The notes under the pieces: generated by a model | The model's input: the letters and a program-made list of their open reading frames with translations, nothing else | Databases searched by the model: none | What the model was told of the DNA's origin: nothing | Origin: Neomelitea salexigens DSM 19753 | GTDB taxonomy: Bacteria; Pseudomonadota; Gammaproteobacteria; Pseudomonadales; Spongiibacteraceae | Reading direction: 5' to 3' | Assembly: GCF_000422345.1 (NCBI RefSeq) | Contig: NZ_KE383819.1 | Location: 75,517 to 139,516 of the forward strand | DNA length: 64,000 nucleotides | Shown: piece after piece, positions 46,480 through 57,489 of the stretch | Position numbering within the stretch: the stretch's first letter is position 1 | How the letters are laid out: every line of letters begins with the position of its first letter | Made by a program: the position numbers and the translations under genes

Positions 46480-47322
46480 TTAAATCCATAAGTACCTAAA
46501 GGACCTGTATCTCAACGAGAGCTTAATTTTCAAAAATACGAGATAAACCCACAGCAAAGCACTTACTCCAGCAGAAGACGAAGAAAATGTTTCTCTTGTC
46601 GCATAAATATGGTCACCCCACCGGAATAACGAACGCTCGCTTGACTCTGCGGTATGCTCGGAAAGAGAATGATCAACATTCACATCGAGGACAAAAACAT
46701 TTTCAAAAAAAGACTCATAGCGCACAAAAAAATCAGTATCCGTACCATAAAACCTCAAATTAATGTTAAATAAAGGCGACATTTTTTTATAACATTCCCT
46801 TGAAATTATTACACCACTATTAATGGATACGAAATTTTTTGAGCTATGGACTCCTTTTTCAATTTTTTCAACTAACCTCCCTTTAAATAAAAATCGCTTA
46901 CCAGGACTGACTAATTTACCAGACGAATATAGGCGGGGCACAAATACACCAACACTAGAATCGTGCACATGCCGCCCGCAGACTTGAAGCTCCGATATAA
47001 CTCTACTAAGGCGACCATTCCCGTAATCAGTATCATCATCTGAAATCATCAAGAAAACTTCATCACTTGACTCATCACCAAAGACCGCCGCCGACACAGA
47101 ATTATATATCTCCGGCAAAGTAGAGTTATTGCCACTATATTTTATGACACAGGGGTCATTAAAAAAAACAGGCATTTCAGGACTATTATTCCACACATGC
47201 AATCTAACATCACAATTCGCCCAACGGCTCTTGCACCCAAAGATTGAATTAAAAGCCAATGATTCGTCAATTGACTTTCTATACAGAACGATCAAAACAT
47301 TAAGCGTTAACAGGATCACCAC
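46480..47322 (-). CDS. GT-A fold glycosyltransferase
   Basis: A 280-residue protein with a GT2-like N-terminal fold. LTLNVLIVLYRKSIDESL opens the nucleotide-binding region, and ISDDDTDYG (about 95-103) holds the DxD-type metal site. The C-terminal part has a possible amphipathic helix near VYLVFLKIKLSLR. Similarity is weak outside these motifs, so sugar specificity is not assigned. It overlaps the polymerase-like gene by 23 bases. Confidence 0.72.
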   Translation of the reverse strand: MVILLTLNVLIVLYRKSIDESLAFNSIFGCKSRWANCDVRLHVWNNSPEMPVFFNDPCVIKYSGNNSTLPEIYNSVSAAVFGDESSDEVFLMISDDDTDYGNGRLSRVISELQVCGRHVHDSSVGVFVPRLYSSGKLVSPGKRFLFKGRLVEKIEKGVHSSKNFVSINSGVIISRECYKKMSPLFNINLRFYGTDTDFFVRYESFFENVFVLDVNVDHSLSEHTAESSERSLFRWGDHIYATRETFSSSSAGVSALLWVYLVFLKIKLSLRYRSFRYLWI

Positions 47323-48547
47323 TCCTTAAAATAAAATACATATACATAACACTAAGAAAATGAAAATTAAACCCTATCATTCTATCTTCAAATGTATTAG
47401 TAATTACAAAAGAAGCGAGTATGAGCAAAGAAAAAATCCCACAAATACGCCCCCAAGAAAACCCAATACGCACAAATAAAAAAAACGCCCAATAAACAGC
47501 AACTAGCCCTAGAACTCCGTACGAATAAAATGTATCAATAAACCCGCTGTGGGTTGAGCCAACTACTGCAGACGCAGCCAACTGGCCACTCAAACCATCT
47601 ATGAAGCCAGAAGAATTAATTATTCTTGAAGCAAGCTGGTTATGCCCGTGACCAATAAAAGGGTACTCCATAGACATGCCAGCAAAAAAGCTCCATATTT
47701 TATCCCTATTGGAAAAATCAATAGAGTTAACCACATCGCCCAAACCGACCGCATCCAGAAAAAGCTGCTGAGATAGAGCGTACATCAAAACTGGAAATAC
47801 CAATATAAATGCAAAAACCACCCTAAGGTAGAGCCCCTTAATATTACCAACGACTAAATAAACGAGAAGTAGAAAAGAAGCCAACACTGAAATTAACAAT
47901 GCTGTATTAGATCCAGCCATTATCAACATTAACAACGCCAAAGAGACGAAGAAAAAATTTCCTAATGTTCGCCGTTTATATAGCTCGAAAAAGAAAACTA
48001 TAAAAGCAAATGACAGAAAGTTCCCCAGCGCATTCTTATGGCCAAAAATACCTTGCCAACTACCTTCATGCATACCAACAGAAACCCCATAATCCGGGAA
48101 AAATACAATCACAAACAATGAAATGGATAAAAGCGCCCTCAGAACGAATTCTAAAAACCTATATGCTTGAATATAACCCACATAAGAAACGAACCCATAA
48201 AGCCCAAGGAGGGAAAAAGTATAAAAAACTAGATCTTTGAATAGCGGATAAAAATAGTGGGCATTCCACAAAGAGGGAGCAGTAATTATAACCAAGAGAA
48301 TAAATACTTTACCAGCCCCAGTATATACGCGCTTGCTTTTCAAAAAAAACAAGCCTACTGAAAAAGCAATAACAGCCAAGCCAAGAAATTGTATAGCAAC
48401 ATATACAGGGCTACTTTCCTGAATCGCATTAACGAAATTTTCGTCACGAGCTCCACCGGCCTTTAGCATTTCAATAAATCCGGTTGACATGAAAAAAGCT
48501 AGCATTATCGCCAACCTCCCCACCCACCCCGTTATTCCTATACTCAT
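47300..48547 (-). CDS. wzy: O-antigen polymerase/ligase-like membrane protein (Wzy-type)
   Basis: A 415-residue protein with about ten to twelve membrane helices and a large loop. GIFGHKNALGNFLSFAFIVF and the loop with YPFIGHGHNQLASR are the Wzy_C/O-antigen ligase-like signature. In a Wzx/Wzy locus that already has wzx and wzc, polymerisation of lipid-linked units is the most likely role. Ligase (WaaL) is an alternative, but a locus with a Wza exporter more often holds a polymerase. Confidence 0.8.
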   Translation of the reverse strand: MSIGITGWVGRLAIMLAFFMSTGFIEMLKAGGARDENFVNAIQESSPVYVAIQFLGLAVIAFSVGLFFLKSKRVYTGAGKVFILLVIITAPSLWNAHYFYPLFKDLVFYTFSLLGLYGFVSYVGYIQAYRFLEFVLRALLSISLFVIVFFPDYGVSVGMHEGSWQGIFGHKNALGNFLSFAFIVFFFELYKRRTLGNFFFVSLALLMLIMAGSNTALLISVLASFLLLVYLVVGNIKGLYLRVVFAFILVFPVLMYALSQQLFLDAVGLGDVVNSIDFSNRDKIWSFFAGMSMEYPFIGHGHNQLASRIINSSGFIDGLSGQLAASAVVGSTHSGFIDTFYSYGVLGLVAVYWAFFLFVRIGFSWGRICGIFSLLILASFVITNTFEDRMIGFNFHFLSVMYMYFILRSGDPVNA

Positions 48548-48944: not shown

Positions 48945-49622
48945 TCACCTCTCTGAAAGCCAATTTCCATCAGTAAGATCATATTTTTTTAATTTTTTCG
49001 CAGGAACTCCACCATATATGGAAAATGGCTCCAATATACCGGAAACCACCGCACCCGCAGCAACTATCGTACCTTCACCAATTTTTGAGCCCGCTAATAT
49101 CTTTACACCCGCACCAATCCAGACGTTCTTTTCTAGAACAATTTCTGCCCCTTCTTCACCCATGTTAAATCCGATTTGAGGGCTGCTAATAATATGATTT
49201 GATGCGACTACCGAAGTATCCTTCGCTATTATGACATTTTCCCCTATGGTGATAGGCCCGCCAAAATATGATTGAAGCAACACATTAGGCCCAACAAAAA
49301 CATCATCGCCTAACCTAATTGAACCATTACGAGGAGCGATAGACACACCGTCCTCTAGTATTACTCTGTTTCCAATTTCAAGCTGACCTGAGAACTTATT
49401 ACCGAAAATAAAACTTATATTGCCGAGGCAGCGAAGATAGTTTCCCACTACCAGTCTTTCTGGGCGACCACGGAAAACCAACGCGCCATAATACTGACCA
49501 AAGGACTTTGACTTGTACAAATTAAAATTGAAATTCAAAGTCGCCTTCATTATCATTAAGCGCAGCAATGCAATTGGCGTAAAATATAAAATACGAAATA
49601 CTTCAAAAATATTTTTATTCAT
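48945..49622 (-). CDS. Left-handed beta-helix acyltransferase
   Basis: A 225-residue hexapeptide-repeat acetyl/acyltransferase. The repeats are visible from about 80 on, for example ILEDGVSIAPRNGSIRLGDDVFVG and VWIGAGVKILAGSKIG, the latter followed by GTIVAAGAVVSG, which is typical of sugar O- or N-acetyltransferases such as WbbJ. The catalytic His is probable in the SNHIISSPQ segment. It overlaps the upstream HP-motif gene by eight bases. The acetyl group could go to any sugar of the repeat unit. Confidence 0.87.
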   Translation of the reverse strand: MNKNIFEVFRILYFTPIALLRLMIMKATLNFNFNLYKSKSFGQYYGALVFRGRPERLVVGNYLRCLGNISFIFGNKFSGQLEIGNRVILEDGVSIAPRNGSIRLGDDVFVGPNVLLQSYFGGPITIGENVIIAKDTSVVASNHIISSPQIGFNMGEEGAEIVLEKNVWIGAGVKILAGSKIGEGTIVAAGAVVSGILEPFSIYGGVPAKKLKKYDLTDGNWLSER

Positions 49623-50823
49623 TCGGTTGACACTCGCCGAAATAATATGCCGGATTATTTAACCCACTTAAAATCTCGTCATCGACTAACAATTCATAAA
49701 GCTCATTAGCGTCTGAAAACTCTTTGAAACCTACGCCATAGAACTCATCATTACCACTAAGATATTGAAGCACAGGAAGCTCATAGAACTGTGACTCGAA
49801 AAGAGTTGTTGAGTTGAATCCTAAAACTGCGCGAAATCCCCCAGCATACTCATCTTCAAGTAATTTTTTTTCTGAAACACTAATTCCATTAACTCGACAT
49901 AAATCAGAAATTTTATTCCTGTTTAAAGAAGGATGAGGACGCACAACAAATTGATAATTAAAAAATATGTCATCTGACAATATTTTTAACAATTTAACTA
50001 TTTCCTGATCATAGGTTATCCGAGGCAAACAAACCAACACTCGCCTTGAGCCAGGCTTAAAAGATGAGGAGAAACTGCGATTTTTATATAATGGATTACC
50101 AACAACATCGATTTTAGTAAATGGCTCCAAGTAATCTTTGAGCTGATCCCGAGTAAACGCTCCCCATGCATAGAATATTTCTGCCGTTGAAAAATACATA
50201 CCTATCATCTCGAACGGAACTTCATTTTTATATTCATAATACATACCATGCTGAAGCGTATATGTTTTAACCCCCGAATATCGCATTAACAGTGTAATTA
50301 CGCTCTCATACTCATAAGAACTATTAAAGCTAAGGCAGGTACGGAATTTAGATGCGTCTATTTTTTTCTCAAAATAGTTTAACGAAGCCAGTGCGGGATA
50401 AACCGACATAAACAAATGAAAGTACTGACCGGAGTTAGCGGCGACAGAAAATTTATGCGCGGCTATAAAAGCGTACACGTCAAAATTAAATCTCCAGCCT
50501 CTTATCTGACCACTTACCGCCAAACGCTCAAAGTCTATACCCATTTTTTCAATATATGCATCCGCCAATCTTTCATAATCGTGTCTGATAATACTGTATA
50601 TGTATAACGCATCACTTTTAGAGCCGAAATGCTTCAACCGAGGAACAAAGAAAAATATTTTAATTAAGGCTTTAATTTTTTTAATCGCGCCTTTACCTGC
50701 GAAATGGTATACCGTTACGGCTAGGAAATACGCGCTTAATTTTTCTAAGGGAATTCTTTTGTATTCTAAACCAGACAAAGCCCTTACCAGGCTCAAATAA
50801 GTCTTGTATCTCACGTTATCCAA
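49615..50823 (-). CDS. Putative GT-B glycosyltransferase with HP motif
   Basis: A 402-residue protein of no sharply recognised family. In the middle, YTLQHGMYYEY and then FYAWGAFTRDQLKDYL look like the donor-side half of a GT-B enzyme. Near residue 300 is VVRPHPSLNR, an HP motif as seen in bacterial sialyl- and Kdo-transferases that use CMP-sugars. VGNPLY precedes it. Sitting next to HAD phosphatase, cytidylyltransferase and aldolase genes, it may transfer the CMP-activated product. This is an inference from motif and context; CDP-glycerol transferase-like proteins share similar motifs. Confidence 0.62.
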   Translation of the reverse strand: MDNVRYKTYLSLVRALSGLEYKRIPLEKLSAYFLAVTVYHFAGKGAIKKIKALIKIFFFVPRLKHFGSKSDALYIYSIIRHDYERLADAYIEKMGIDFERLAVSGQIRGWRFNFDVYAFIAAHKFSVAANSGQYFHLFMSVYPALASLNYFEKKIDASKFRTCLSFNSSYEYESVITLLMRYSGVKTYTLQHGMYYEYKNEVPFEMIGMYFSTAEIFYAWGAFTRDQLKDYLEPFTKIDVVGNPLYKNRSFSSSFKPGSRRVLVCLPRITYDQEIVKLLKILSDDIFFNYQFVVRPHPSLNRNKISDLCRVNGISVSEKKLLEDEYAGGFRAVLGFNSTTLFESQFYELPVLQYLSGNDEFYGVGFKEFSDANELYELLVDDEILSGLNNPAYYFGECQPNE

Positions 50824-50870
50824 TTAAACACCGTATCTAAAATAGGTTTTCGCAGACATTCTGCCAAATA

Positions 50871-51545
50871 CTAATCAACAAAATTTGCCAGCTTTGACTT
50901 GCTAGTGTAACCGTTCTCCAGTAGCCAATACTTCCACGCATCAACCTCAGTCCATTGAGTCATGAACACGAAATCAATGCTCGCTTCAACTGCAACCTTC
51001 GCATCATATTTACTATCACCTAGGAATAGCGCTGGCTGCCTGATATTGTTCGCTCGAATTTCACGCGCTAGGATCTGCTCTTTGGTATCTGGGCTCCCAT
51101 ATATACCACCGTTAAAATAACGTGCGATATTGCGCTTTTTAAAGACCTCACGTAATTCAGCCTGATCTCCGCCAGACACAATAAGCCACGTTGAGTCCGG
51201 AGTTTTATCTCGAAGCTCCGCCAGTTTTTCCGCCACCCCACAAGTCAATAAGCCTGACTTAACTGCTGATGAAAACTTACCTAATAGCTCTCTGAGCTCA
51301 GCATCACATACTTCACTTTTACCGACAATCTCTGTTAGAAAATATCTAAATTTAGCGTATCTTGAAACCCCGCCATTTGCGACGTGGTATTCAATCAATT
51401 TGTTAGCGCATTCCAGGCCATAATGCTTGGAAGCCTCATAGAAAGCTGCCGTCTTAACTTTATTCGAGTCTAAAACAACACCATCGCAATCAAAAACCAA
51501 GGTTTTGTATTGGCTAATATCTTTAATCATTTTTTCACAAGCCAA
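50871..51545 (-). CDS. HAD superfamily hydrolase
   Basis: A 224-residue HAD phosphatase. FDCDGVVLDSN (about 17-27) holds the nucleophile Asp and the acid/base Asp, SGGDQAE the motif II Ser, and FLGDSKYDA the motif IV acids. The cap is helical (about 35-100). It starts within the last codons of the cytidylyltransferase (19-base overlap), so the two are tightly coupled. In CMP-Kdo and CMP-sialic acid pathways a HAD enzyme removes the phosphate of the keto-acid before activation; the same job is inferred here. Confidence 0.87.
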   Translation of the reverse strand: MACEKMIKDISQYKTLVFDCDGVVLDSNKVKTAAFYEASKHYGLECANKLIEYHVANGGVSRYAKFRYFLTEIVGKSEVCDAELRELLGKFSSAVKSGLLTCGVAEKLAELRDKTPDSTWLIVSGGDQAELREVFKKRNIARYFNGGIYGSPDTKEQILAREIRANNIRQPALFLGDSKYDAKVAVEASIDFVFMTQWTEVDAWKYWLLENGYTSKSKLANFVD

Positions 51546-52207
51546 TCAAAACCATATTTTTTATATGCAAATTCCGCAAACTCAAAGTCTAAAATATCAT
51601 CCACATCAATTGACTGAACTTTATCCAAGGCAACAAACTTCGGCTTAGTACCAACAACATTACCGCGCTCAAACATTAATGCTTTGCTGATAATAGTTAT
51701 TGCAAAGTTAAGTGATACGATATCAGGCAAGTCCTGGCTTTTTGGTGTTTGATCAAGCTCGTAATTAATCGGCACTCCGTTCTGCCAAAGGAACTTTTTC
51801 TCTGGCGACACTGAGTTAATGCTGTCATACAACCCCATCCCGTCGAGATATTCACGGATCGCAAATTCGTACGTTGCAGCCTTTAGCATTGGGCTCGTCG
51901 TTTGCGCCATCATCAAAATATCTGTATCTGTTACTTCTGCGATGTGCCTCCAATGCACATCATTAGTAACGCTTGAACTTGCAAAATCAGGTTTGCGCCG
52001 ATGAATAGATACGCCCATTTCTTCAGCAATCTCAATGGAGCGCTCGCAATCGGTATTGACCAAAATCTGATCGATGCCTTGCACATGCTTCAGAACCTTT
52101 AACTTAAGTTCAAGCAGGGAGGTATCCGCAAATGGGCGCGTGTTTTTTGAAATAACACGCTGGGACCCTTTTCGAACAGGCACAACTGCAACTATTCTTT
52201 TCGACAT
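51527..52207 (-). CDS. CMP-sugar (acylneuraminate/ulosonate-type) cytidylyltransferase
   Basis: A 226-residue member of the NeuA/KdsB/PseF cytidylyltransferase family, which activates 2-keto-3-deoxy sugar acids with CTP. The N-terminal VVPVRKGSQRVISKNTRPF is the CTP-binding loop, and VNTDCERSIEIAEEMG follows. DVHWRHI and QTTSPM align with the sugar-binding region. The end has IDVDDILDFEFAE as in CMP-NeuAc synthetases. It starts one base after the aldolase gene. No NeuB, KdsA or PseB genes accompany it, so the substrate may be unusual. Confidence 0.88.
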   Translation of the reverse strand: MSKRIVAVVPVRKGSQRVISKNTRPFADTSLLELKLKVLKHVQGIDQILVNTDCERSIEIAEEMGVSIHRRKPDFASSSVTNDVHWRHIAEVTDTDILMMAQTTSPMLKAATYEFAIREYLDGMGLYDSINSVSPEKKFLWQNGVPINYELDQTPKSQDLPDIVSLNFAITIISKALMFERGNVVGTKPKFVALDKVQSIDVDDILDFEFAEFAYKKYGFDWLVKK

Positions 52208-52208
52208 A

Positions 52209-52970
52209 TCATTTATTACTCACTATTTCTTTAATCTTTGACATAAAAATATTTACGTCAACTGAATATGCAATGTAACTAAAACCTTCCTCCTTAAGCG
52301 ATGCATTACGATGCAGACTGTCGGAGAAGCTTCCCAGTAAGACACCTTTTGCTTTGGCCTTACTCGAAATCCGCCTCATTAAATCAAGCACTTCCGGAGA
52401 GTCCACCTGTCCCGGCTTGCCTACCGATTGAGATAAATCATATGGACCGATAAACAGAATATCGAAACCATCTACGTCGAGGATCGCGTCTAGGTTCTCT
52501 ATTCCCTCCACACCTTCAACCTGTAGAATCAGGAGGGTATTATTCGCTTTTCTAAGATAATCTTGCTTGGGTTGCTCACCAAAGTCTGCCGCCTTAACAT
52601 AACAACAAACTCCGCGCATTCCATTGGGATGATATTTGGCGGCTTTGACAGCAACTGCAGCTTGTTCTGCAGTAGCGATATTTGGTACTTGCACGCCCAA
52701 CGCACCAGCATCCAAAGCGGATCCTATTGCATGTGAATCAACACCCTTCACACGAACAACTGGCACTAAACCAGCCATTATTGCCGCTCGTGTATGATGA
52801 TGTATCGTCGGCAATGGTACTGGCCCATGCTCCATGTCAAGAATAATAAAATCCATGCCACCATAACCGACTGCAGCAACAAAATCGGAATCAAGAGTTT
52901 TACTAAATAGGCCTAGGCAAGGTTCTTCACCTAATTTTTTTTTAAATTTAAATAATATGTCTTGATTCAT
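52209..52970 (-). CDS. HpcH/HpaI family (pyruvate-type) aldolase
   Basis: A 253-residue class II aldolase of the HpcH/HpaI family, which condenses pyruvate with an aldehyde or cleaves 2-keto-3-deoxy acids. DMEHGPVPL has the conserved His48, VPVVRVKG the substrate Arg near 73, and LQVEGVEGIEN and IGPYDLSQS carry the metal-binding Glu and Asp. ALDAGALGVQVPNI is also typical. It lies two bases from the fused aldolase gene upstream and one base from the cytidylyltransferase downstream, which points to synthesis of a 2-keto-3-deoxy sugar acid rather than catabolism. Confidence 0.9.
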   Translation of the reverse strand: MNQDILFKFKKKLGEEPCLGLFSKTLDSDFVAAVGYGGMDFIILDMEHGPVPLPTIHHHTRAAIMAGLVPVVRVKGVDSHAIGSALDAGALGVQVPNIATAEQAAVAVKAAKYHPNGMRGVCCYVKAADFGEQPKQDYLRKANNTLLILQVEGVEGIENLDAILDVDGFDILFIGPYDLSQSVGKPGQVDSPEVLDLMRRISSKAKAKGVLLGSFSDSLHRNASLKEEGFSYIAYSVDVNIFMSKIKEIVSNK

Positions 52971-52972
52971 AA

Positions 52973-54616
52973 TTATAACTGTCCGTATATCGACGCTGCC
53001 GGAATTTGATAAGTGGTCGGCGTAAGCGATACTAATGGAATACTTCCATCAGCTTCGCAAAATAGCCTAAACATCTCATTCATTTCACTGTTACGAACAT
53101 CCCCGGTTGAGTACCCATCAAAACCAACCAAGAATATTTTTCTGGCCTTCCCACTCGCCGCCACAGCTAACGCATAAACAGCGACCATTGCAGCGGGAAC
53201 CAAACAATGGCTTTCATTAAATTCAAAAACCCCTTCTTTTACCCCTAAACCGAAGTCTAATATTTCTTTAGCCATCAACTCATTTCTAACATCATTTGGC
53301 AGCATACTTGCGGGCGTTAAGATCGGCTCAGGTAGCGAGAGATGCTCAGCGCAATCAGCGAGCAATCTAACGGGATGACATGCAGCCCTAACATTAATCA
53401 AATCCGCTGAAATAATTTGTTGCGTATTTAACGCTATAACAAAGGGAGCCTTTTCCTTTATAAAGGATTCTATAGCCGCCTTATGTCGCATAACACCAGG
53501 GCCAGTACCAATGATTAATACGTCTCTATCATTGATTAGCTCCTGGGGGCACCATTGTCCCTTCGGGGTACCCGAATAAAAATGCCTCGCCCCTTCAAGA
53601 AGATTACTACTAAATTTCTTCCCTCCCTCTAGCTTAAGGTGATTTATTACAGCAAGAATATCTTCTTCGTTGAATCGGTTATCTGACAGCATCTCCTGCA
53701 CATAAGATGGATGAATGCCATACTTTCCCGCGAGGTAATAGTATGGATTTGTACCCCAGCCATATTCATTCTGCATTGGCTTGAAATGTTTTCGAATCAA
53801 CTCGAACAATTTGATCGGATTCGATTTCACATTTCTCTGCTCCTGTAAGGCTAATGCTAGATATTCAGTTTGGGAATTACCCGGCCCTCTTCCCATACCA
53901 GTAACAGTGCTGTCTACCCATAAAACTCCATCTCGAACCGCCCGCTGTGTATTTGCTATAGCAAGCCCCATATTGTCATGTGTATGAATACCTAACTCAC
54001 AATTCGCCCCACGCTTAAATGCCGTAATTATTTTTGATGTTTTTTCTGGATCTAAACTCCCCATACTGTCGGCAAAATACAAAGCATCAATTGGATAATC
54101 TCTCGCTTCAAGAGCGAGTGCTGTAACTTCTTCTGCTGTTCTTTCAGCAACCTGCATTAGGTTAAAACCTACCAAATAGCCCGCATTCTTTAGCCAACTC
54201 GCTGCAGGCAAACACGCCCTAAATTCGTGGACATGACAGGCTATTCGAACAAGAGTCACTGGGGAGTATTCTTTCAACTTAAATAAAACACTAAGCTTTT
54301 CAGTCAGAAAACCTTCAACATCAGATACTGAACTCCCTGATTTAGGCAAAAGCTCAGACCCATTTACCATTACACCAATTTTCGACGAAAGTTCTTTTGG
54401 AATATTCAAATTTGAAATAAACTTATCGGTACTGTATGCGCACCCCCCTTTAAAGCCATTATTATTGAGCGAACGAAACCCTATTTCGACATAGTCCACA
54501 TTCAACGCAGCCATTGCAAGAAGATAATCGTCTATTAACTCCGGACTAAAATCCCAATGATTGTAATATCCACCGTCGCGAAGAGTGCAATCGAGTAGTT
54601 TTATTCCGTCTTTCAT
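52973..54616 (-). CDS. DRE-TIM (HMGL-like) aldolase fused to an unknown C-terminal domain
   Basis: A 547-residue two-domain protein. The N-terminal TIM barrel (about 1-290) has LDCTLRDGGYYNHWDF (8-23) and the metal-binding HTHDN (211-215), followed by GMGRGPGN; it belongs to the 4-hydroxy-2-oxovalerate aldolase/HMG-CoA lyase-like family. The C-terminal domain (about 365-547) opens with DVLIIGTGPGVMRHKAAIE, a Rossmann-like loop, and ends FLVGFDGYSTGD. It resembles DUF115/MptE-like domains, though not firmly. The whole lies between wzx and a second aldolase and overlaps wzx by four bases. The function is unknown; a pyruvate-dependent C-C bond formation is inferred. Confidence 0.78.
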   Translation of the reverse strand: MKDGIKLLDCTLRDGGYYNHWDFSPELIDDYLLAMAALNVDYVEIGFRSLNNNGFKGGCAYSTDKFISNLNIPKELSSKIGVMVNGSELLPKSGSSVSDVEGFLTEKLSVLFKLKEYSPVTLVRIACHVHEFRACLPAASWLKNAGYLVGFNLMQVAERTAEEVTALALEARDYPIDALYFADSMGSLDPEKTSKIITAFKRGANCELGIHTHDNMGLAIANTQRAVRDGVLWVDSTVTGMGRGPGNSQTEYLALALQEQRNVKSNPIKLFELIRKHFKPMQNEYGWGTNPYYYLAGKYGIHPSYVQEMLSDNRFNEEDILAVINHLKLEGGKKFSSNLLEGARHFYSGTPKGQWCPQELINDRDVLIIGTGPGVMRHKAAIESFIKEKAPFVIALNTQQIISADLINVRAACHPVRLLADCAEHLSLPEPILTPASMLPNDVRNELMAKEILDFGLGVKEGVFEFNESHCLVPAAMVAVYALAVAASGKARKIFLVGFDGYSTGDVRNSEMNEMFRLFCEADGSIPLVSLTPTTYQIPAASIYGQL

Positions 54617-55965
54617 GACTTAGGCATCTCTTTAAATAAAAAATTTAATGTAATAGCATTGTTACATATTCGGACGAGCGACTTTAAACTGCTATCCGTA
54701 TAATTAATCAAATAGTTTGCAATTAATATTGTAATTAATGTTGCAGCTGCAGCACCTTCCATCCCATAAATTGGTATAAAAAAATAATTCAAAATTACAT
54801 TTATTAATAAAGCGATCAATGTTCTAAGAGCTATCTTCGTCTCTAAGCCCTCTACAGTCAAATAGCGTGACGTAACTGCACCCAATCCTGTAAATGCAAC
54901 CGCCCACATTGAAATAATCAGCGCATTTGTAGCACCAAGATATTCCGAACCAAAAGTAAGCAACACAACGGAATCACCGAAAATGGAAATTATTATCGCG
55001 ACACCAATACCGGGCCAAAAAACGAGGGCGAATAGCTTCGCCATTCCGTCCTCGTAACGATAAGCCGAATGCGCCTTCAATTTAACAATTGCTGGCAAAA
55101 GCGAAATACTTATTACGTATGGAACAATCACCCAACCTTCATATATTTTAGCTGCCGCGGAATAAAGCCCAAGGTCATGCGCACCCAGCATATTTTTGAT
55201 CATTAACTGATCAATCCTCATATACAAAACTGCTGCAACACCCGACAGCACCATCGGCCATGCACTGCGCAGCAAGGGCTTGACCAAGTAGGCCTTGAAA
55301 TTCAACAGAAACCTCACTTGCCCCAAACGCACATGCATTAGAGATAACAAGATTGCTATAATTACTTGATCTAGAGCATAAGCAGCTGCAAACCAAAATA
55401 TATCAGCCTGAACCACGACTAGAGAAATTTTAACAACCGAGCCTAACGCCAACGCGCTAGACTTCGCTAACGAGGAGTACTTTGCCTTTACCTGAGACTG
55501 GAAATTATAGTCAATAGCCAAAAAGGACTGGAAAATCATTCCAATAGATATAATCCAAATATATAACTGGATTTCGCTATCTTTTTCAAAAAAATAAGTC
55601 ATTAATGCTAAACAAAAATTACTTAACAACGCCGCAATGAGCATAAGCCAAAAAGCCGTACCAAGATATGACTCCCGACTTTCGGAGTGGCGAGCTAGAT
55701 CACGAACCAGTATACTCTCCATACCTAATCTACTGACAACCATAAAAACTGCTACTACAGCCAGCGCATAACTAATGACACCAAAGCGCTCAGGGCCCAA
55801 ATAACGAGCCACATAAATACTTACAAATAACGCAGCAATAATTTTTAGTGCGTACTCGGATATCATCCACGACGAATTCACAAGGTACCCAATAAGTGCT
55901 TTATTTCCTCTCAGGCGCTTAAGATTGACTCTCACCAAGTTGGGCCTCTTAAATTTTCGAAACAA
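54613..55965 (-). CDS. wzx: Oligosaccharide flippase Wzx
   Basis: A 450-residue membrane protein of the MATE/MVF-like polysaccharide transporter family with about twelve to fourteen helices. SIYVARYLGPERFGVISYALAV is the typical N-terminal signature, and RIDQLMIKNMLGAHDLGLYSAAAK is the conserved second block. It flips undecaprenyl-linked repeat units across the inner membrane. It follows wcaJ and overlaps the DRE-TIM aldolase start by four bases. Confidence 0.93.
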   Translation of the reverse strand: MFRKFKRPNLVRVNLKRLRGNKALIGYLVNSSWMISEYALKIIAALFVSIYVARYLGPERFGVISYALAVVAVFMVVSRLGMESILVRDLARHSESRESYLGTAFWLMLIAALLSNFCLALMTYFFEKDSEIQLYIWIISIGMIFQSFLAIDYNFQSQVKAKYSSLAKSSALALGSVVKISLVVVQADIFWFAAAYALDQVIIAILLSLMHVRLGQVRFLLNFKAYLVKPLLRSAWPMVLSGVAAVLYMRIDQLMIKNMLGAHDLGLYSAAAKIYEGWVIVPYVISISLLPAIVKLKAHSAYRYEDGMAKLFALVFWPGIGVAIIISIFGDSVVLLTFGSEYLGATNALIISMWAVAFTGLGAVTSRYLTVEGLETKIALRTLIALLINVILNYFFIPIYGMEGAAAATLITILIANYLINYTDSSLKSLVRICNNAITLNFLFKEMPKS

Positions 55966-56040: not shown

Positions 56041-57489
56041 CTATGCAGAGCTAGTAAGGAAGCCGCGAAAAATTGTAAGAAATGTTATGCGCAAATCAAA
56101 CCACACCGACCAATGCCGAATATAAAACAAATCAAACTCAATCCGCTTTTCCATTTTTTCAATAGTGTCTGTTTCACCACGCCAGCCATTTATCTGCGCC
56201 CAACCAGTAATTCCAGGCTTAACCAAGTGGCGCTGCATGTAGCCGTCAATTTTGTCGCGATATAGCTCATTGTGAGCCACCGCATGAGGACGCGGACCAA
56301 CAATACTCATAGAGCCCTGAAGAACATTGATAAACTGGGGGAGTTCATCTAGTGACGTTTTTCGAATAAACGCCCCGACTTTAGTAATACGCGCATCACC
56401 CTTAGTGGCTTGCTTAACCACATCGCCGTTATCACAAGTGGTCATACTACGAAACTTCCACACCTCAATTTCCTCGCCATTGATCCCGTAACGACGCTGC
56501 TTGAAAATAATAGGGCCGGGCGAGGTAAATTTAACTGCTGCCGCAATAATGAGCATAGGAATGGCAATTAAGCATAAGATGATGGAGCTAAGCACTACAT
56601 CCTCTATACGCTTTACCGCTGAGTCGAAGGAGTCGAAGGGGGTGTCGTAAACGCTTACTACAGGCAGACCACCAATCTCTCGGCTGCGGGCATTTAGCAT
56701 TTTGAAAGTAAACAGGTCCGGCACTACGTGCACACAGCATGAGCTATTGGAAAGCTCTTCTACCAACTCTTTAATGGTTTCCTCTTCGCGCATAGGTAGT
56801 GCAATGTAGATATCGTCAACACTGCCTGCGCGAGCTTCTTTCTTTAAGGCATCGATATTGCCGATGACCTGCAATTTTTCACCACCCTTTTCTGCTGGCA
56901 GTGGGTGGCTACCGATACTCACTCGGTTGTCGTAGAAGCCAGAGATGTCTATGCCCATCCAGGGGCTACCAAGAATACTGCGAGCCAAACTTAAGCCCGG
57001 CTCTTTGGCCCCTACTATGGCGATACGGCGAGTGTTTACCCCCGCTCTACGAAATTCACGCATGATGATGCGCGCTGAAACACGATAAAAACTGATGGAT
57101 ACGGGCACCGCTATCGCCCACGCCACCATTACACCACCACTGTAGCGTTCGGTCATATCGAATAGGAAAACGATGGTCAGCAAAACGCCAATAACCAACG
57201 TCCAGGTGAGGAAAACAGCGCGCACCTCGCCGAATAAGGAGTGACCACGCCACGAAAGGTAGAGGCCGTTTTTATTTGCCAGGATATGGAAACATATGGA
57301 CGTGAGGAAAGCCGCCATTTGCTGGGGCACATCCCACGTATAACCCGCAATGTAAACGAATGCAGCCAGAAGCCCCCACGTTAGCAACACATCAAATAGC
57401 TGATGCATGGCAACCAGCATTGAATGGTGCTGACGAATGAAGCCTCCGTGCCGGACGGATCCGGACGCTTGAACTGGGTTAGTATTCAC
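56041..57489 (-). CDS. wcaJ: Undecaprenyl-phosphate sugar-1-phosphate transferase (WcaJ/WbaP type)
   Basis: A 482-residue initiating transferase that moves glucose-1-P or galactose-1-P from the UDP-sugar to undecaprenyl phosphate. Four N-terminal membrane helices are followed by a CoA-binding-like domain (VGAKEPGLSLARSILG) and the C-terminal catalytic part: FKQRRYGINGEEIEVWKFRSM, TSLDELPQFINVLQG, SIVGPRPHAVAHNE and VKPGITGWAQINGWRGET. The GTG at 57489 has GAGGGA upstream. It is the first gene of the leftward locus and diverges from wzi. Confidence 0.95.
   Translation of the reverse strand: MNTNPVQASGSVRHGGFIRQHHSMLVAMHQLFDVLLTWGLLAAFVYIAGYTWDVPQQMAAFLTSICFHILANKNGLYLSWRGHSLFGEVRAVFLTWTLVIGVLLTIVFLFDMTERYSGGVMVAWAIAVPVSISFYRVSARIIMREFRRAGVNTRRIAIVGAKEPGLSLARSILGSPWMGIDISGFYDNRVSIGSHPLPAEKGGEKLQVIGNIDALKKEARAGSVDDIYIALPMREEETIKELVEELSNSSCCVHVVPDLFTFKMLNARSREIGGLPVVSVYDTPFDSFDSAVKRIEDVVLSSIILCLIAIPMLIIAAAVKFTSPGPIIFKQRRYGINGEEIEVWKFRSMTTCDNGDVVKQATKGDARITKVGAFIRKTSLDELPQFINVLQGSMSIVGPRPHAVAHNELYRDKIDGYMQRHLVKPGITGWAQINGWRGETDTIEKMEKRIEFDLFYIRHWSVWFDLRITFLTIFRGFLTSSA

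Follow-up and report, generated by a model that had tools for sequence, protein, structure and literature searches.

A recurrent gene cassette of a fused DRE-TIM aldolase, a cytidylyltransferase and a HAD phosphatase, and its probable role in making a CMP-activated sugar acid

Five genes at a polysaccharide locus and the core that recurs

Analysis of a 64,000-nucleotide stretch of the genome of Neomelitea salexigens DSM 19753 (GCF_000422345.1, contig NZ_KE383819.1), referred to here as the window, revealed five adjoining genes on the minus strand (49615-54616). In order, these encode a protein in which a DRE-TIM aldolase is fused to a second domain, an HpcH/HpaI-type aldolase, a cytidylyltransferase, a HAD phosphatase and a GT-B-like protein. 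A preliminary description of this DNA had the genes running in one direction with overlaps or short gaps, and all five open reading frames (ORFs) were found to be so arranged, separated in turn by a gap of 2 bases, a gap of 1 base, a 19-base overlap and a gap of 47 bases. The genes belong to a Wzx/Wzy capsule or exopolysaccharide locus. Our data indicate that the conserved unit among them is the fused aldolase, the cytidylyltransferase and the HAD phosphatase, with the HpcH and GT-B genes being optional.

The evidence for this core comes from a genome-collection scan, in which the best 80 of 121 relatives, ranked by the full-length fusion as query, were taken as related loci. That all 80 are fused is a biased observation, since the ranking used the full-length query. 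Their neighborhoods were searched by tblastn with sequences from the window, from Leisingera, and from relatives that as many as ten of these loci supplied. A cytidylyltransferase was found within 3 kb downstream of the aldolase in 79 of the 80 loci, and within 100 bases in 70; the contig of the lone locus without one stops 3 bases past the aldolase, and in L060 only a 42-bit piece of the enzyme is present, at a contig end. A HAD phosphatase was found within 6 kb downstream in 74 loci, on the same strand in 73 (the match in L059 is on the opposite strand). Of the six loci without a HAD match, two (L060 and L068) are at contig ends. The hosts were predominantly proteobacteria (56 Gamma-, 7 Alpha- and 3 Betaproteobacteria), with the remainder comprising 4 Bacilli, 4 Actinomycetes, 1 member of the Acidimicrobiia, 3 Cyanobacteria, 1 planctomycete and 1 unassigned genome. 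Because the grouping recurs across several phyla, it is more than a product of chance. As a control for chance adjacency in the N. salexigens genome we used its six DRE-TIM matches, and only the fused one is near any of the three PF02348 matches.

The other two genes were far less constant. HpcH was present in 9 of the 80 loci, 7 of which have a NeuA-type cytidylyltransferase, and its distribution needs at least eight changes on the aldolase tree; its most likely part, in this minority of loci, is to provide or modify a related precursor. A homologue of the window GT-B gene followed the HAD gene in four loci (L025, L039, L072 and L087), two of which (L039 and L087) have identical aldolases, and weak GT-B matches were observed elsewhere in L031, L040, L041 and L065. 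The proposal that all five genes form one conserved unit was therefore not borne out, and the expected co-occurrence in other genomes holds for the three-gene core.

Searches with the C-terminal domain of the fusion recovered nine more loci, partly from the same species and on stretches of 1.7-3.6 kb, with a cytidylyltransferase in 9/9 and a HAD gene in 5/9. In searches with that domain only, it was within frames of 533-548 amino acids in every genome matched, bar one contig-end fragment. Its spread is patchy, at 8 of 369 genomes of the class, 2 of 398 of the phylum and 2 of 21 of the family, with the genome of origin counted each time. The full-length fusion is also on three Leisingera plasmids; in the two whose surroundings were read, a KdsB-type enzyme and a HAD protein follow the fusion and no HpcH is annotated. 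The window HAD is 50-53% identical to that of Leisingera.

Two further protein clusters were noted near the cassette. A cluster 6 protein (median 521 amino acids, e.g., L017:8400-9965) is in 13 of the 80 loci and often ends ~10 bases before the aldolase match; the one member scanned has no Pfam family. A cluster 19 protein (e.g., L050:5643-6746) is near the cassette in 6 of the 80 loci, and the one member scanned is of the GSCFA family, possibly an acyl-tailoring enzyme.

The surroundings of the five genes are those of a polysaccharide locus (Table 1), with an initiating transferase and flippase upstream and an acyltransferase and polymerase downstream. Beyond this stretch there are Wzi, Wza and Wzc genes on the plus strand, and further down the locus there are glycosyltransferases, nucleotidyl transferases, an RmlD-type protein, an NAD-dependent epimerase/dehydratase and a UDP-glucose/GDP-mannose dehydrogenase. 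A 280-amino acid protein between a glycosyltransferase and Wzy (46480-47322, minus strand) had only chance-level family matches, the best being an NCBIfam rhamnosyltransferase (E 0.06). No near-identical DNA was found in E. coli.

Table 1. Features of the five-gene stretch and its immediate context (window coordinates).
Feature	Coordinates	Strand	Basis
Fused protein, 547 amino acids: DRE-TIM (HOA-type) pyruvate-type aldolase (~1-346) and MptE/SteA/GT42-like nucleotide-binding-type domain (~357-547)	52973..54616	-	PF00682; PDB fold matches
C-terminal domain of the fusion, residues 357-547	52973..53548	-	Invariant residues; fold model; Maf/MptE-like profile match
HpcH/HpaI-type aldolase, accessory	52209..52970	-	PF03328; PDB relatives including HpaI, YfaU and GarL-type
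NeuA-type cytidylyltransferase (CMP activation, predicted)	51527..52207	-	PF02348; top PDB matches are NeuA structures
HAD-IA phosphatase, part of the conserved core	50871..51545	-	HAD_2
GT-B-like candidate transferase carrying an HP motif; optional	49615..50823	-	No Pfam match
Hexapeptide acyltransferase, 8-base overlap with GT-B gene (context)	48945..49622	-	PF00132
Wzx-type flippase, 4-base overlap with aldolase gene (context)	54613..55965	-	PF01943
WcaJ-type initiating sugar transferase (context)	56041..57489	-	TIGR03023 above cut-off
Wzy-type polymerase (context)	47300..48547	-	PF04932

The fused aldolase and its second domain

The fused protein scored well above the cut-off of PF00682, the HMGL-like/DRE-TIM family (96.8 versus 29 bits, E 2e-27). 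Its full model had a predicted local distance difference test score (pLDDT) of 93, and residues 1-346 of the model matched PDB 3dxi (Z 34.6, 297 residues aligned) and DmpG (1nvm, Z 32.8). Residues R13, D14, H211, H213 and N215 (motif RD...HxHxN), together with R48 and R124, were invariant in an alignment of 78 sequences (made without L068, L074 and L084). We take D14, H211 and H213 to be the metal ligands, as in DmpG, and Tyr17 is apparently at the place of the catalytic His21 of that enzyme. The metal-site residues that the preliminary description named as a check on the aldolases are, on this assignment, present in the fused one. Mean pairwise identity was 59% for the aldolase part and 52% for the C-terminal domain.

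Unfused sister aldolases (33-34% identical) were observed on Paraburkholderia, Streptomyces and Mesorhizobium plasmids (L006:7971-11809, L008:8001-9759 and L150:4989-8236), near HAD-type and short-chain dehydrogenase/reductase genes. Some such loci have annotated aminotransferase or biotin-carboxylase-family genes, and they perhaps encode small-molecule pathways of a new kind. Around plasmid relatives of the HAD gene that are without a fused aldolase (L149, L151-L154 and L156), neither the aldolase nor the cytidylyltransferase queries found a match.

The C-terminal domain was modelled by itself (pLDDT 94.7), since the aldolase domain filled the fold search with the whole model. Its closest structures were SteA (9hmz; Z 12.8, Foldseek E 5e-5) and MptE, an archaeal HPPK (8sd5; Z 12.7, root-mean-square deviation 2.8 over 153 aligned residues, Foldseek E 3e-3), followed by the GT42 sialyltransferase CstII (1ro8; Z 11.2, deviation 4.1 over 175 residues) and by Cst-I and a Pasteurella sialyltransferase (Z 11.0). 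Thiamin pyrophosphokinases scored 9.4-8.3 and mammalian sialyltransferases ~8, with the next other row at 6.5. Invariant in the 78 sequences were G372, N397, G498, D500, D506, R508 and T532, and a motif H414-P415-x-R417 was near-invariant; a GxGP...H motif is common to the domain and MptE. By profile the domain matched four proteins of the Maf/MptE-like kind (probability 92%, E 5e-7), and its sequence match to a GT42 protein covered the GxD element only (probability 12%, E 0.002). PF01973 (MptE-like) was matched weakly, at E<=1, by 17 of the 78 members (best 3e-4) and not by the window protein, and PF06002 (GT42) was absent among the 18 Pfam families matched by the 78. Across 299 genomes, GT42 by sequence gave one match above and one below the cut-off, too few for a profile. 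Maf proteins have been proposed, in the accessible text of one report (PMC3426422), to transfer CMP-pseudaminic acid. From the structural and sequence matches, the domain as modelled has the MptE/SteA/GT42-sialyltransferase fold, one that is common to kinases and CMP-sugar transferases. A domain described earlier as having no clear role has therefore gained a fold, and its activity is weighed below.

Activating enzymes, partner proteins and viral fusions

The window cytidylyltransferase exceeded the PF02348 cut-off (46.3 versus 22.6 bits, E 6e-12) and was far from that of the PseF equivalog TIGR03584 (55.3 versus 205.7 bits). Among the 80 related loci, the downstream enzyme was of the KdsB type in 54 and of the NeuA type in 24, with one locus having both. 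On a tree of 77 aldolases (FastTree only, without L060, L068, L074 and L084), the swaps between types took at the fewest 17 changes, at least 10 of them forced by supported branches, and the type labels were almost as scattered as shuffled ones (18 and 17 changes observed versus shuffle means of 21.8 and 21.2). Such repeated non-orthologous replacement is what would be expected if KdsB-type and NeuA-type enzymes both activate the product of the aldolase, which suggests that they do.

Although they are named for it, the KdsB-type enzymes of the cassette differ from canonical KdsB in the sugar-binding domain, the C-terminal one, to which the available text of PMC3149649 assigns Kdo binding in the KdsB of Aquifex. 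Positions 140, 162, 174, 176, 180, 203 and 205 (L011 numbering) are V, R, H, G, Y, L and Q in 28/28 canonical enzymes, these 28 being the best PF02348 matches from relatives of the window organism and canonical by sequence only. In the operon enzymes they are P, K, Q, C, F, I and I, in 50-53 of 53 per position. The same set was present in 15/15 KdsB-type enzymes fused to aldolases in phages, bar one I at 140. For one operon enzyme the nearest solved relative was 1gq9, which we take to be the capsule enzyme KpsU. In L033 (11620-14807), the KdsB-type gene of the cassette is followed by genes for a phosphoenolpyruvate (PEP) mutase with a cytidylyltransferase-like domain and for a thiamine pyrophosphate enzyme, by position perhaps a phosphonopyruvate decarboxylase; there is no HAD match, and the locus is possibly a phosphonate-linked variant. 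By Pfam, L033 was alone in having PEP mutase among those loci whose neighbors were scanned, which were a part of the whole.

KdsA and NeuB, which depend on PEP, are the textbook entries to CMP-activated (cytidine monophosphate-activated) ulosonic acids. No NeuB match was found in the N. salexigens genome, which is 99.99% complete. Its two DAHP/KdsA-family synthases lie on C4 and C14, away from the window contig C11; the one of 300 amino acids is taken as KdsA from its size. A canonical-type KdsB is also on a different contig. The polysaccharide locus itself thus has neither NeuB nor KdsA, and the adjoining aldolases are therefore the sole candidate suppliers of acid for the NeuA-type enzyme. 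The earlier suggestion that aldolase stands in the place of a PEP synthase beside a cytidylyltransferase and a phosphatase in a polysaccharide locus is supported by the conserved core, by this lack of NeuB and by the viral fusions described below. That suggestion had assigned the role to two aldolases; it applies generally only to the fused one, HpcH being found in so few loci.

The remaining proteins were assigned by family where possible. HpcH/HpaI exceeded the PF03328 cut-off (121 versus 25 bits, E 6e-35), and the phosphatase matched HAD_2 (E 7e-9). The GT-B-like protein had no Pfam match; its HP motif (H297-P298) was invariant in seven aligned relatives, a profile of which found no convincing solved structure (best E 0.57), and one of the seven had a weak polysialyltransferase match (E 0.12).

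A relative of the aldolase was also found on a viral contig, where a 573-amino acid ORF runs on into a KdsB-type enzyme. A scan with this viral fusion gave 19 viral loci, all on contigs of uncultivated viruses, with both parts in one ORF in 16 (L157-L172). When their cytidylyltransferase parts are grouped at 90% identity, the 15 fusions compared (L164 was left out) form seven lineages. The T4-type capsid gene Gp23 was found on two of six viral contigs tested, the two longest (177 and 181 kb). Near the fusion were an MptE-like protein (12/16 loci) and a small HAD-like protein (13/16), with flanks cut in some; the MptE-like protein had a weak match to a PHROG named alpha-2,3-sialyltransferase (E 0.003). 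These viruses may decorate their virions or alter host glycans. Annotated phage records gave six matches to the window fusion and 17 to the phage fusion, none over more than 80% of the fusion in either case. One cyanophage cytidylyltransferase is compared with a glycerol-3-phosphate type in the accessible part of its report (PMC9146016).

A proposed pathway and its alternatives

The cassette would encode a CMP-ulosonate kind of pathway, and the preliminary description was right in outline and wrong in extent. We consider it probable that the three-gene core makes a CMP-activated 2-keto-3-deoxy sugar acid that would resemble sialic acid or 3-deoxy-manno-octulosonic acid (Kdo) without being Kdo itself. 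The DRE-TIM domain, very probably a pyruvate aldolase, would join pyruvate to a phosphorylated aldose from central metabolism, yielding a 4-hydroxy-2-keto acid phosphate. The HAD enzyme would then take off the phosphate, and the cytidylyltransferase (NeuA-type here, of a divergent KdsB subfamily elsewhere) would make the CMP-acid. Finally, either the C-terminal MptE/GT42-like domain or a transferase particular to the locus, for example the GT-B protein, would transfer the acid to the Wzx/Wzy polysaccharide. We infer that the aldehyde is phosphorylated, which seems fairly likely, because the HAD gene is near-constant. In the ORF clustering no other sugar-making gene accompanies the cassette throughout, the next cluster being present in 34 of the 80 loci, and the aldehyde should therefore come from central metabolism. 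For the acid, a size of C6-C8 is favored. The Psychrobacter marincola capsule was rejected as a guide to it: the accessible text on that capsule (PMC7281560) reports pseudaminic acid, a NeuB product, and so does not identify the acid of the cassette. No candidate was named in the accessible parts of a marine lipopolysaccharide review (PMC3210612) or of a K13 Kdo-transferase paper (PMC12887879).

The pathway has likenesses to several known systems. With CMP-Kdo synthesis (KdsA, KdsC and KdsB) it shares the succession of keto-deoxy acid phosphate, HAD phosphatase and PF02348 cytidylyltransferase, but a pyruvate-type aldolase would form the C-C bond in place of a PEP synthase, the HAD is of the HAD-IA kind, and the KdsB-type sugar domain is altered. 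The NeuA-type enzyme and the GT42/Maf-like fold of the C-terminal domain recall the nonulosonic acid pathways (NeuB, NeuA/PseF, and a sialyltransferase or Maf), from which the window differs in its lack of NeuB and its distance from PseF. DmpG/BphI and 3dxi (BVU_2661) have the same aldolase fold and metal-site motifs; in contrast to DmpG/BphI, the window aldolase carries the fused domain and has no dehydrogenase partner among 20 window proteins scanned. As for MptE, SteA and CstII, the likeness to the C-terminal domain is one of fold, whereas sequence similarity is marginal. No description of the cassette or of the fusions was found in the open-access literature searched.

Some observations weigh against the proposed pathway. 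The aldolase fell short of the cut-offs of the 4-hydroxy-2-oxovalerate aldolase models TIGR03217 and NF006049 (93.5 versus 286 and 109.6 versus 229 bits). In L013, L033, L075 and L076 there was no HAD match although the contig continues, L076 having a different HAD-type protein nearby. Five unfused sister aldolases on plasmids had no nearby match to the cassette cytidylyltransferases, while a HAD match was found near one of them, L008. F180 is shared by all of three stand-alone viral KdsB-like enzymes, and K162 and Q174 by two each, without P140 or C176, and the residue set is therefore only partly special to aldolase-linked enzymes. The KdsB of Aquifex also has F at 180. Moreover, the phage MptE-like proteins match the C-terminal domain at the glycine motif only (E 0.005, probability 7%).

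That the aldolase serves a redundant Kdo route, making Kdo-8-phosphate from pyruvate and arabinose 5-phosphate, would suit the KdsB-type enzymes of 55 of the 80 loci and the resemblance of one to 1gq9. We regard this as improbable in view of the seven consistent differences from canonical KdsB, the canonical-type KdsB and KdsA-family synthases elsewhere in the same genome, and the presence of the cassette in four Bacilli and five Actinomycetota loci, groups that normally have no Kdo. It is still less probable that the pathway here in fact consists of HpcH and NeuA, with the fused aldolase having another job. HpcH does directly precede NeuA in the window and in seven loci, and precedes a KdsB-like gene in L075 and L076, but 70 of the 79 cytidylyltransferase-bearing loci gave no HpcH match, and the phage fusions join the cytidylyltransferase to the DRE-TIM aldolase, not to HpcH. 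A catabolic pathway, with the aldolase splitting a 4-hydroxy-2-keto acid, or a phosphonate pathway, with a phosphonate as substrate of the cytidylyltransferase, seems very improbable: neither acetaldehyde dehydrogenase nor PEP mutase was among the 20 window proteins scanned, the cytidylyltransferases examined are of KdsB or NeuA type by family and nearest structures, and the loci read in detail resemble polysaccharide clusters. In its favor are the likeness to 4-hydroxy-2-oxovalerate aldolase, the PEP mutase adjoining the KdsB-type gene in L033, and the existence of CMP-phosphonates, described in the accessible text of PMC6697681.

The activity of the C-terminal domain is a separate matter, as one of the alternatives is compatible with the proposed pathway. 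The domain could act as a phospho- or pyrophosphotransferase and prime either the aldehyde or the keto acid, with the HAD enzyme later removing the phosphate. This would accord with MptE/HPPK, a kinase, being the top solved match by sequence (E 0.004) as well as near the top by fold, with the weak PF01973 matches and with there being no conserved His after the GxD motif; likewise, a mean pairwise identity of 52% is easier to reconcile with one constant small molecule as substrate than with glycan acceptors that vary. We nevertheless find it doubtful, given that the CstII, Cst-I and Pasteurella sialyltransferase folds are nearly equal in score, that the profile match is to Maf, and that in the five unfused sister aldolases the domain and a cytidylyltransferase are both unmatched. 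The last two points speak for a CMP-acid transferase, which we hold to be a serious possibility, if a tentative one. Some other activity appears rather unlikely.

Taken further, these data raise the prospect, which we advance with caution, of a third general way of arriving at CMP-activated ulosonic acids, in addition to those of KdsA and NeuB, present in bacteria and T4-like phages and leading to a new sugar acid. In bacteria the first and last steps would be combined in one protein (aldolase and GT42/Maf-like transferase), with phages fusing the aldolase to the CMP-activating enzyme instead. Aldolases that accept pyruvate and many aldehydes are of use in synthesis. If the proposal is true, a metal-type pyruvate aldolase would be a different entry to CMP-ulosonic acids across Gram-negative bacteria, Gram-positive bacteria and phages. 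It would also account for genes in polysaccharide loci that are labelled “aldolase catalytic domain-containing protein” and “3-deoxy-manno-octulosonate cytidylyltransferase”, and it predicts a sugar acid not yet recognized.

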